NCBI GenBank assembly: GCA_017651265.1 | Contig: JAGCDO010000049.1 | Span: 1 to 64,000, forward strand | Reading direction: 5' to 3' | Origin: Prevotella sp. | GTDB lineage: Bacteria; Bacteroidota; Bacteroidia; Bacteroidales; Bacteroidaceae | DNA: 64,000 nt | Shown: piece by piece, positions 24,491 to 47,907 of the stretch | Numbering within the stretch: position 1 is the stretch's first letter | Layout: every line of letters begins with the position of its first letter | Made by a program: the position numbers and the translations under genes | Notes under the pieces: generated by a model | What the model was told of the DNA's origin: nothing | The model's input: only the letters and a program-made list of their open reading frames with translations | Databases searched by the model: none

Positions 24491-24526
24491 TAGGGAAAAT
24501 CCTATCTTTGATTAGGGAAATTCCTT
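24491..24526 (+). promoter_or_regulatory. Paired TAGG operator, site 1 of 3
   Basis: Two copies of TAGG-N6-CCTA/T: TAGGGAAAATCCTA (24491-24504) and TAGGGAAATTCCTT (24513-24526), starts 22 bp apart. The nearer TAGG begins 36 bp before the minus-7 box at 24549. The same layout occurs before the genes at 47964 (+) and 42224 (-). A TATATTTG overlapping the nearer site (24526-24533) is a less likely minus-7 box. Confidence 0.7.
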
Positions 24527-24548
24527 ATATTTGCAGTAAAATATGTCG

Positions 24549-24556
24549 TATTTTTG
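24549..24556 (+). promoter_or_regulatory. Promoter minus-7 box of the aromatic-repeat protein gene
   Basis: TATTTTTG, 28 bp before the ATG at 24585. Chosen among three TAnnTTTG matches (also 24503 and 24526) because its distance to the TAGG pair equals that in two other promoters. Confidence 0.7.
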
Positions 24557-25593: not shown

Positions 25594-25644
25594 ACGCTCT
25601 CATAAGTCTTTCATTATTAACAAATATATTTTCAGGAAATGATT

Positions 25645-27213
25645 ATGAAGAAGATTTTTACTATAGCTGCACTCGCTTTGGCTGTAATGCCACTGGCAGC
25701 ACAAGAAACGTATGAGAATGCTAACATCGCTACAGAAGATCTCAATGGAACCGCTCGCTATGTAGGTATGGGTGGTGCCATGGAGGCACTGGGAGCCGAT
25801 ATTTCAACCATTGGTACGAACCCCGCAGGTATCGGACTCTTCCGTCATACCATGGCCAGTACCTCACTGAGCGGTCTTGAGTTGCAGGATGCAGAGGACT
25901 TCAGCATCGGTAAGAAGTCAAAGGTGAGCTTCGACCAGATCGGTTTCGTCTATGCACACCGCTCCGGAGAGAGATCGTTCCTGAACTTCGCATTCAACTA
26001 CCACAAGAGTCGTAACTTCAACGATCTGACCGATGTCAGCGACGGACTCCATGGTGCATCGCAGAACAAACTCTCTTATGCCAAGGGCTTTGAGCAGTTG
26101 TTCGATCTGAATTTCGGTAATACGGTCACCGGAAACTCCAACGCCTTCTCGCAGGTTGACTACCTCTATTATAATGGTCTTCTGAGTGATGACGAAGGTA
26201 ACCTGTTCTACAATGAGGCCAATGGCTATCTGATGCGCAAGGCCTCCAAAGGACATATCGGTGACTATAACTTCAACCTGAGCGGCAATATCAACGACCG
26301 TGTTTATCTGGGTTTGACATTAGGCATCAAGGACGTGAACTATAAGTCGTACAGTGAATACACCGAGCAGCTGCTGGACTATAACAACAGGGGTATCGGT
26401 AGTACCACACTGGCTGACGAGCGTCGTATCGACGGATCGGGCTTCGACATCAAGGCCGGTATCATCTTCCGTCCGATCGAGACCTCTCCGTTCCGCATCG
26501 GTCTGTATGTGAATACACCGACATGGTACGACCTGAAGACTTCCAACTACACGGAGTTAATCAATAACACCAATGTGGGTCTCTACAAAAGCTTCAACAG
26601 TAGCGAGGTGTACGAGTATAAGCTCTATACCCCATGGAAATTCGGTGCTTCATTGGGACACACCGTTGGTAACTGGCTGGCACTGGGATTCACCTATGAG
26701 TATGCTGACTACAGTAATCTCGACAGTCGTTACAATACCGGCGGTACCTACGACTGGTATTACGATAACTACTACGAAGACAGCGAGAGCGACTACGTGA
26801 TGAACAATCACACTGAGTCATCGCTCAAAGGTGTTCATACCCTGAAGGTAGGTGGTGAGTACATGTTTGAAGACGGTCTTTCCCTGCGTGTAGGCTTCAA
26901 CTATCTGTCTCCTATGTATAGCAAGGACGGCTACAAAGACGGTTCACTCGACAGTCCTGGATCCTACTATGCATCAGCCACCGACTATACCAACTGGAAG
27001 GGAACAACCCGTGTAACGATTGGTGCTGGCTACCGCATCGGTAAGATGTGTGTTGACTTAGCCTACCAGTATAGTCAGAAGAGCGGTGACTTCAGTCCGT
27101 TCATGAGCTATTGGACCGCAGATGGCCAGAATATGTCAGACAATATCTGCAATCCCGTGAAACTTGACAAGGAGCGCCATCAGGTGTTGTGCACCCTCGG
27201 TTACCATTTCTAA
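25645..27213 (+). CDS. OmpP1/FadL-type outer membrane protein
   Basis: 522 residues; a signal peptide (MKKIFTIAALALAVMPLAAQ) and a beta-barrel with the FadL-like N-terminal hatch (GTARYVGMGGAMEALGADI, then TIGTNPAGIGLFR). It should let hydrophobic compounds through the outer membrane. The barrel ends in a C-terminal aromatic (GYHF), as needed for insertion by BAM. An ATG 6 bp earlier is also possible. The gene follows the aromatic-repeat gene by 76 bp with a hairpin between. Next gene overlaps nothing but begins 11 bp after its stop. Confidence 0.86.
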   Translation: MKKIFTIAALALAVMPLAAQETYENANIATEDLNGTARYVGMGGAMEALGADISTIGTNPAGIGLFRHTMASTSLSGLELQDAEDFSIGKKSKVSFDQIGFVYAHRSGERSFLNFAFNYHKSRNFNDLTDVSDGLHGASQNKLSYAKGFEQLFDLNFGNTVTGNSNAFSQVDYLYYNGLLSDDEGNLFYNEANGYLMRKASKGHIGDYNFNLSGNINDRVYLGLTLGIKDVNYKSYSEYTEQLLDYNNRGIGSTTLADERRIDGSGFDIKAGIIFRPIETSPFRIGLYVNTPTWYDLKTSNYTELINNTNVGLYKSFNSSEVYEYKLYTPWKFGASLGHTVGNWLALGFTYEYADYSNLDSRYNTGGTYDWYYDNYYEDSESDYVMNNHTESSLKGVHTLKVGGEYMFEDGLSLRVGFNYLSPMYSKDGYKDGSLDSPGSYYASATDYTNWKGTTRVTIGAGYRIGKMCVDLAYQYSQKSGDFSPFMSYWTADGQNMSDNICNPVKLDKERHQVLCTLGYHF

Positions 27214-41401: not shown

Positions 41402-41511
41402 ACCAGCCTTCTAACGCAAAGTTATCAGCCTTATAACGCATAGTTATCAGCCTTCTAACTACCCGTAATCAGCCTTATAACTACCCGTAACCAGCCTTCT
41501 AACTTTAGCCT
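41402..41511. repeat. Five tandem 22-bp repeats
   Basis: Exact 22-bp spacing: starts at 41402, 41424, 41446, 41468, 41490; core A(C/T)CAGCCTT(C/A)TAAC is kept. The base before TAAC alternates C-A-C-A-C, giving a 44-bp super-period, and tails come in pairs (GCAAAGTT/GCATAGTT, TACCCGTA twice). GTTAT and ATAAC can pair across CAGCCTT. It lies upstream of the greA promoter within the 377-bp non-coding gap 41308-41684. Confidence 0.95.
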
Positions 41512-42253: not shown

Positions 42254-42261
42254 CAAAGATA
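42254..42261 (-). promoter_or_regulatory. Promoter minus-7 box of the DKNYY gene
   Basis: Minus strand TATCTTTG, 30 bp from the ATG at 42224. Confidence 0.75.
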
Positions 42262-42284
42262 GGGCTTTTTGCTCATAGAACAAG

Positions 42285-42320
42285 TAGGGAAACCCCTATT
42301 CTTGCATAGAGGATATCCTA
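42285..42320 (-). promoter_or_regulatory. Paired TAGG operator, site 2 of 3
   Basis: On the minus strand TAGGGGTTTCCCTA (42298-42285) and TAGGATATCCTCTA (42320-42307): TAGG starts 22 bp apart, the nearer 37 bp from the first base of the minus-7 box (42261). The outer site falls inside the last codons of the tlpA-like gene, so coding and regulatory constraints overlap. Confidence 0.7.
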
Positions 42321-47741: not shown

Positions 47742-47840
47742 TTAAAAAACCTGTTCCTGCGCAAGAAATCTATTACATTGTTTTACACAATGCATCATTT
47801 GATGATAGTCACGATGCCCTTCGCATTTCCCTATTCGAAA

Positions 47841-47876
47841 TAGGAAAAACTCCCCTCCGTTTTAGGAATTATCCTT
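47841..47876 (+). promoter_or_regulatory. Paired TAGG operator, site 3 of 3
   Basis: TAGGAAAAACTCCC (47841-47854) and TAGGAATTATCCTT (47863-47876), 22 bp apart, the nearer TAGG 37 bp before the minus-7 box at 47900. An adjoining TTTCCCTATT (47826-47835) makes the outer site part of a larger dyad. Confidence 0.7.
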
Positions 47877-47899
47877 TTGAAAAGCTGCAAATACTGCCT

Positions 47900-47907
47900 A
47901 CCTTTGC
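47900..47907 (+). promoter_or_regulatory. Promoter minus-7 box of the His-rich exported protein gene
   Basis: TACCTTTG, 57 bp before the ATG at 47964. Confidence 0.75.

Follow-up and report, generated by a model that had tools for sequence, protein, structure and literature searches.

A predicted activator site of two in-phase palindromes at promoters of exported-protein genes in Prevotella and its relatives

We analyzed a 64,000-nucleotide stretch of a Prevotella sp. contig (JAGCDO010000049.1; hereafter the window), in which three promoters carry paired TAGG repeats. For sites 1 and 3, reading of the sequence showed that the positions given in the initial annotation are right. At site 1, on the plus strand, TAGG begins at 24491 and 24513, and the -7 box TATTTTTG occupies 24549..24556. 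The repeats belong to a distal dyad, TAGGGAAAATCCTA (24491..24504), and a proximal dyad, TAGGGAAATTCCTT (24513..24526), located 22 bp downstream; the pair scored 48.3 bits with a motif model whose training included this site. An extra -7-like box, TATATTTG (24526..24533, plus strand), lies 13 bp past the first base of the proximal dyad, and a reading of the sequence 19–20 bp upstream of the -7 box revealed no -33 element. The target gene, P0001 (24585..25568, plus strand), whose start we set at MKKLIL, that is, 3' of the promoter, encodes an aromatic, Gly-rich exported protein with a signal peptide recognized by reading; it matched no Pfam family at E 0.01. The following gene (window 25639-27213) encodes an exported-looking protein of 524 aa and is more conserved than P0001 itself. 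A relative of this neighbor (E 1e-57 or better) was found beside a P0001 relative in seven of the eight loci tested (L266, L308, L310, L331, L340, L363 and L373; not in L319), so that the two genes look like a conserved operon.

Site 3 lies on the minus strand, with TAGG at 42320 and 42298 and the -7 box TATCTTTG (42254..42261, by reading and pattern match) having its first base at 42261. Its distal dyad, TAGGATATCCTCTA (42307..42320), falls within the last codons of an upstream thioredoxin-like gene, and the TAG of its proximal dyad, TAGGGGTTTCCCTA (42285..42298), doubles as the stop codon of that gene (ORF end 42296). A putative -33 TTG (42281..42283, minus strand), judged by the general consensus, is found 19 bp from the -7 box. 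This is the weakest of the three sites in the window: the pair scored 27.2 bits, and the reverse strand was nearly equal at 26.8. The target gene, P0002 (41685..42224, minus strand), encodes an exported DKNYY-family protein, which passes the cut-off of Pfam PF13644 (DKNYY) with 82.5 bits vs 25 (E 5.8e-23). About 200 bp past this gene (approximately 41410-41500, minus strand) there is a AAGGCTGATAACTATGCGTTAT-like tandem repeat with a period of 22 bp, the sequence of which is unrelated to the dyads.

At site 2, on the plus strand, TAGG was found at 47841 and 47863 as annotated, but the -7 box, which had been put at 47900, is TACCTTTG and starts at 47899 (47899..47906, by reading and pattern match). 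The pair scored 38.4 bits and consists of the distal dyad TAGGAAAAACTCCC (47841..47854), which has a weak right arm, and the proximal dyad TAGGAATTATCCTT (47863..47876, by reading and pattern match); the latter is overlapped by a putative -33 TTTG (47876..47879) located 19 bp from the -7 box. In addition, a right half-dyad, TTTCCCTA, is present at 47820-47833, 21 bp above the distal dyad, which recalls the weaker third dyad found at some other sites (see below). The target gene, P0003 (47964..48548, plus strand), encodes, by reading, an exported His-rich protein with two LTxxQ-like motifs, in which the Q is invariant across seven aligned sequences of the P0003 group. We also considered P0003 as a Spy/CpxP chaperone, but sequence comparison did not support this assignment: no Pfam family at E 0.01 and no PDB sequence match were obtained; the best Pfam match of two short P0003 relatives was DUF4890, under the cut-off. 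The proximal TAGG had been described as lying 36, 37 and 37 bp from the -7 box. We found 36, 37 and 36 bp for sites 1, 3 and 2, respectively; site 2 has the same distance as site 1 because its -7 box begins at 47899.

Each repeat is part of a 14-bp dyad, TAGGGAwwTCCCTA. Alignment of 102 sites, namely those that have a distance of 36 bp and lack the extra P0001-group box, gave the consensus wwTAGGGAwwTyCCYM-N7-wwTAGGrAwwwTCCyTT(T/G), followed after approximately 19–20 bp by TAnyTTTG. Columns outside the selection pattern were conserved in this set, with C at 84% and C at 90% in the right arm and A at 83% at position 5 (one of the 199 loci behind these column statistics was chosen on CC). In 83 of 142 sites, at least four of the five letters of the distal right arm agree with CCCTA, and this agreement has its maximum at a single offset; apart from one site, this arm played no part in site selection. 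The proximal unit retains TAGG-N6-CC and gave a right-arm count of 5/142, and its end merges with the -33 TTTG. Therefore, the dyad TAGG-N6-CCTA/T proposed for most sites holds for the distal unit and is weaker for the proximal unit, because the right arm of the latter runs into the -33 element. The spacing of 22 bp was likewise correct for the three sites of the window, but elsewhere it is either 22 or 21 bp: when any spacing from 10 to 40 bp was allowed, 86 of 88 pairs fell at 21–22 bp (64 with a spacing of 22 bp, 22 with 21 bp), the two exceptions had 10 and 24 bp, and the control pattern gave 1. In some sites a weaker third dyad lies 21–23 bp above the pair (among 248 sites, the offsets 21, 22 and 23 together gave 26 scores above 4 bits, and every other offset tested gave 0–1).

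The housekeeping sigma factor of Bacteroidota, sigma-ABfr, recognizes a -7 TAnnTTTG and a -33 TTG/TTTG. The proximal dyad overlaps the -33 region and begins 36–37 bp before a TAnnTTTG -7 box; among 181 sites this distance was 36 in 138 and 37 in 32. When sites were chosen without regard to the -7 box, 103 of 117 had the box at 35–38 bp, in comparison with a chance of approximately 0.0018 for a four-position slot (73 of 80, with 57 at 36, 15 at 37 and 1 at 35, and 30 of 37; sites too close to a locus end were skipped). T occurs at 80% in each of columns 35 and 36 of the 102 sites, corresponding to the -33 element. The promoters are thus of the Bacteroidota housekeeping type, with the -7 and -33 features of the generally known consensus both present; within the window, the TTG/TTTG approximately 19–20 bp upstream of the -7 box is present at sites 2 and 3 and absent at site 1.

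We compared the frequency of this arrangement with that in control sequences. TAGG-N18-TAGG-N31..34-TAnnTTTG occurs three times in the window and in none of 100 dinucleotide shuffles (mean 0.00). TAGG-N18-TAGG alone is much weaker, with 3 in the window vs a mean of 0.86, and 5 of 100 shuffles reach 3. The whole assembly (3.16 Mb, 69 contigs, 94% complete) has four full-pattern matches, three of them inside the window; the fourth (C13:1457) lies ahead of genes for a Gly-zipper-like lipoprotein and an RlpA-type protein. In 60 genomes of the same genus, with the gap widened to N29..36, there were 180 matches vs 10 for the reversed control pattern, and 55 of the 60 genomes had at least one. Searching the own genome for a single dyad, with as many as two mismatches allowed, gave scarcely more places than the control (36 vs 30 per strand). 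Reading of contexts in this genome also located pairs with a spacing of 21–22 bp before two more P0003-like genes, a DUF4251 lipoprotein gene, a gene for a beta-barrel-like protein and a gene that we take to encode a SIMPL-type exported protein, and a single-dyad arrangement before a presumably TamB/AsmA-like gene. Scored sites of the own genome range from 27 to 48 bits, and shifted or reverse-strand readings of true sites from 11 to 27 bits. An intergenic CAAAACCATAGGTTTTGC-like repeat with a 22-bp period, located at L053 (approximately 548-617, G000:C36) and G006:C93:10579, mimics the search pattern.

Next to these counts stands the conservation of the sites at orthologous promoters. An orthologue of P0001 was found in 37 of 40 same-genus genomes, and all 30 P0001 promoters examined (own included), which were chosen by protein only, carry the twin dyad with scores of 33–48 bits; inside P0001 genes, the motif scan gave -0.6 bits at most. 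DKNYY orthologues occur in 11 of 60 same-genus genomes. Two of these 11 loci were not placeable for scoring; of the remaining nine, own included, seven scored above 18 bits (one of them, L040, with 19.3 bits at 314 bp from the assumed start) and two below 0. These orthologue scores, although not the presence of the sites, are flattered, because the training set of the motif model contains the sites of the window and many of the scored orthologous promoters.

We also investigated the genes that follow the sites. Among the matches listed for the same genus, 151 distinct sites were scored (a number that counts in L056, which came from the phylum-wide sample), and their first ORFs were P0001-like in 37 cases, P0003-like in 31, Gly-zipper-like lipoproteins in 16, another lipoprotein group in 11, a beta-barrel group in 10, a small Asn/Lys-rich group in 6 and DKNYY in 5; the rest were two pairs and 20 singles, and 11 sites had no ORF by the rule used. 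When one example per group was compared with Pfam, DKNYY, DPBB (RlpA-type), OMP_b-brl_2, BamE with DUF4476, and DUF4251 were above the cut-off, and the Gly-zipper example was below it. Export was predicted for 60 of 64 first downstream genes vs 92 of 337 other genes of the same loci (Fisher p 1.3e-24, which is too small because orthologous loci are not independent). This count used a home-made signal-peptide predictor on the first 80 of at least 117 twin-dyad loci, and omitted 13 sites without a properly placed 100-aa ORF as well as two Ignavibacteria loci, one Proteobacteria locus and one 'bacterium' locus. The four first genes scored as non-exported look exported by eye. The contrast between targets and neighbors is plain despite the repeated orthologues. 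Enrichment at exported genes and conservation at orthologous promoters had been named as checks on the earlier proposal of one shared exported-protein regulon, and both support it; a single regulator would serve all of its sites.

To describe the distribution of the motif, the twin dyad alone was scanned over 84,980 species genomes, which gave at least 117 loci. Among the loci listed, 107 are labelled as Prevotella and the genera split off from it, Phocaeicola, Bacteroides, Mediterranea or their kin; some of these are labelled just Bacteroidales, and one (L338), with a P0001-like target, just Bacteroidetes. The other ten comprise two Ignavibacteria loci and one each from Proteobacteria, Limnobacter, Tenacibaculum, Verrucomicrobia, a Bacteroidetes bacterium, Clostridia, Clostridiales and a 'bacterium' record. 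With a stricter pattern, two of 296 phylum-wide genomes matched, both in the family (of which three genomes were sampled), and 54 of 121 genomes of the family matched, spread over 14 of 22 genera. The motif precedes P0001 relatives in Phocaeicola plebeius, P. barnesiae, P. faecalis, Bacteroides caecigallinarum and B. mediterraneensis; these proteins align with residues 1-120 of P0001 at 25–29% identity (E 1e-5 to 1e-9), and the gene following P0001 is also there, at E 4e-75 or better. Bacteroides faecis and Bacteroides sp. GM023 have it before a BamE/OmlA-like lipoprotein gene (named by reading). One Ignavibacteria MAG (JAUYAB01; L306:3639-3738 and L333:6713-6812) has arrays of five near-perfect TAGGGwwwwCCCTA units with periods of 21–22 bp, and one such array sits approximately 250 bp before an exported-looking gene, so that the unit and its period also occur outside the group. 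Perfect tandem dyads with a -7 box at 37 bp are present in a record labelled Clostridia bacterium RGIG331 (L398), perhaps on a mis-binned contig or through transfer.

From the motif, its spacing, its placement at the promoter, its conservation and the exported products of its target genes, we consider it probable that these elements are the activator site of a widely conserved envelope-protein regulon, in which two in-phase palindromes stand beside RNA polymerase. A dimeric regulator would bind two 14-bp palindromes, TAGGG-N4-CCCTA, and the spacing of 21–22 bp, two helical turns, would place both on one face of the double helix. In a standard Bacteroidota promoter (-33/-7, TAnnTTTG), the proximal dimer would cover the -33 region and the distal dimer the next site up; counted from a -7 box centered at -7, the two would sit roughly at -40 and -62. 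Bacterial activator dimers near -40 and -62 contact RNA polymerase. The regulator may in this manner bring the housekeeping RNA polymerase to envelope genes with exported products, and the same protein would act at all sites in the service of envelope upkeep or stress. Its proposed targets are beta-barrels, Gly-zipper-like lipoproteins (with an RlpA-type neighbor in the own genome), BamE-like lipoproteins, and DKNYY, DUF4251 and LTxxQ-like periplasmic proteins; its proposed hosts are Prevotella, Phocaeicola, Bacteroides and their kin.

If this prediction is true, then it introduces the question of which regulator binds the dyads. Reading the N-termini of the first ORFs revealed no regulator-like protein, except for a BlaI-like one after a tandem-repeat match (L113); some other odd first ORFs (for example, RNase HII-like, HU-like) likewise follow weak or tandem-repeat matches. 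Self-control therefore does not help to name the regulator. In genome G355, where ORFs of 100 aa or more were read, an ECF-sigma-like gene lies approximately 1 kb from the C10 site on the other strand, and an AraC-like gene and a PadR-like gene lie approximately 5 kb and 8 kb from two other target sites. A regulator encoded at L053 was rejected, as nine of the 15 motif-bearing genomes, G355, G376 and G461 among them, gave no match to it.

On geometry and distribution, an unproven ranking puts the GerE type first, and either a NarL/LuxR- or a Crp/FNR-type protein fits better than a LytTR protein. Binding by a NarL/FixJ-type regulator (GerE/LuxR HTH) is a tentative idea that we would not expect to hold as it stands. 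The own genome has six GerE-type matches, one of them weak, and the best candidate is an orphan regulator (C36:16.7k) that forms a divergent GerE pair with a hemerythrin-LuxR protein having a similar recognition helix (L050:499-2154, G000:C36). The 14-bp dyad appears to resemble the RcsAB box, and the L050-type protein was found in 27 of 29 genomes profiled, own included (15 motif-bearing and 14 without strict motif matches), with 57–66% identity in G024, G467, G431, G355 and G376. However, it is also present in 13 of the 14 genomes without strict motif matches, G431 among them; it is missing from the motif-bearing G458 and from G358, shows only approximately 30% identity in G427 and G398, and its own locus has no twin dyad. 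RcsB/NarL-type boxes are 14-bp dyads beside or on the -35/-33 element, with envelope-related targets, and in all of these features they are like the sites described here; they differ in sequence, tandem dyads are the rule here, and the Rcs phosphorelay is known from them. We regard it as rather unlikely, although worth stating, that Prevotella, Phocaeicola and Bacteroides maintain their envelope through a previously undescribed response that is Rcs-like and needs no alternative sigma factor. In this reading, an orphan NarL-type regulator would sense the envelope, bind the twin TAGGG dyads and induce lipoproteins, chaperone-like proteins of the periplasm and factors for outer-membrane assembly; among its targets, the P0001 operon would be the most highly conserved.

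A Crp/FNR-family regulator binding the dyads in a 5-4-5 geometry, with dimers near -40 and -62, appears improbable. TAGGG-N4-CCCTA has the half-site spacing of the FNR type, and the arrangement is like that of class I plus class II promoters of FNR/Crp, which have 5-4-5 dyads near -40 and -62. The own genome encodes two clear Crp/FNR proteins, and a Crp-like protein whose HTH is very similar throughout is found in it and in six of seven others. However, the latter is also found in genomes without strict motif matches, and no link to the dyad sites was seen; the half-site here is TAGGG and the targets here are not metabolic, unlike those of FNR/Crp. As a candidate set, the Crp/FNR-like groups were rejected, as none separates genomes with strict motif matches from those without.

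The geometry of site 1 and its same-genus orthologues, with the extra -7-like box and, at site 1, no -33 element at 19–20 bp, would fit repression as well: the dyads would then cover the core promoter, and the regulator would switch between promoters. All 30 P0001 promoters examined in the genus (L452-L481, own included) have boxes both at 13–14 bp after the proximal TAGG and at 36–37 bp. However, the 13–14 bp box is confined to the P0001 group, being present in 37 of 151 same-genus sites, exactly the 37 of that group, and it is rare among sites selected by the twin dyad without the -7 box (1 of 80 and 1 of 37); the box at 36–37 bp is the common one. Mainly repressive sites therefore seem quite unlikely to us.

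The initial annotation had linked the repeats to LytTR-type response regulators, and this link was not supported. LytTR proteins such as HdrR and BrsR bind, in the part of the source available to us, 9-bp direct repeats with 12 (11-13) bp between them before a promoter, which gives a period of 20–22 bp (PMC6193735). The fixed spacing and the period of 21–22 bp observed here fit such direct repeats, and like LytTR promoters the sites have two repeats one double-turn apart just upstream of the promoter, with a predicted activator logic. Among regulators of this type with such repeat promoters are AgrA and ComE. However, the distal unit is a palindrome, a symmetry not required of direct repeats, and the proximal unit lies on the -33 element, unlike the LytTR repeats, which lie several bp above it. 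The two LytTR genes of the own assembly have, by reading, long hydrophobic N-terminal halves and no receiver domain. Their orthologues were not found at E 1e-12 in the motif-bearing G024 and G355, and in 28 other genomes the L049-type was clear in G389 only and the L048-type in G467, G399 and G360, the remaining matches being 25–30% identical; no suitable LytTR gene is thus conserved here. A LytTR gene could be missing from the own assembly, because it is 94% complete. Altogether, AgrA/ComE-like binding is very unlikely. Finally, that the motif is a repeat element or an A/T-rich promoter feature recurring by chance is scarcely credible: some matches are simple tandem repeats (e.g., G045:C1:2973283) and some exact twin dyads outside the Prevotella/Phocaeicola/Bacteroides group have no promoter, but the spacers differ among sites, the GC-specific arms are conserved and the -7 box keeps its position without having been selected for.

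The predicted activator site can also be compared with the known control of envelope genes in gut Bacteroidales. Sigma/anti-sigma pairs govern envelope stress genes, spy among them, in Phocaeicola vulgatus, according to the available part of the report (PMC13114119). As far as that part goes, the EcfO-Reo and CirYZ-spy systems (PMC13114119) are like the predicted one in controlling envelope proteins, with a Spy-like chaperone among the targets, and unlike it in using alternative sigma factors. The promoters described here retain the -7 box of the housekeeping type and have dyads upstream in addition. In the literature, largely that which is freely readable, we found no account of the motif or the regulon, which is no proof of absence, and publications containing the motif letters concern other contexts, judging by their titles and abstract openings. 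The predicted system is, as a kind, a transcription-factor regulon, broad and unusually sharp. It would run parallel to sigma/anti-sigma control while relying on the housekeeping sigma factor. Prevotella, Phocaeicola and Bacteroides are the dominant members of many communities in the gut and rumen, yet little is known of the control of their envelope. The sharp, predictable site yields a list of target genes of unknown function and ties them into one programme; it also provides promoters whose wiring is predictable from sequence, and would reduce the hunt for the regulator to a single pull-down.
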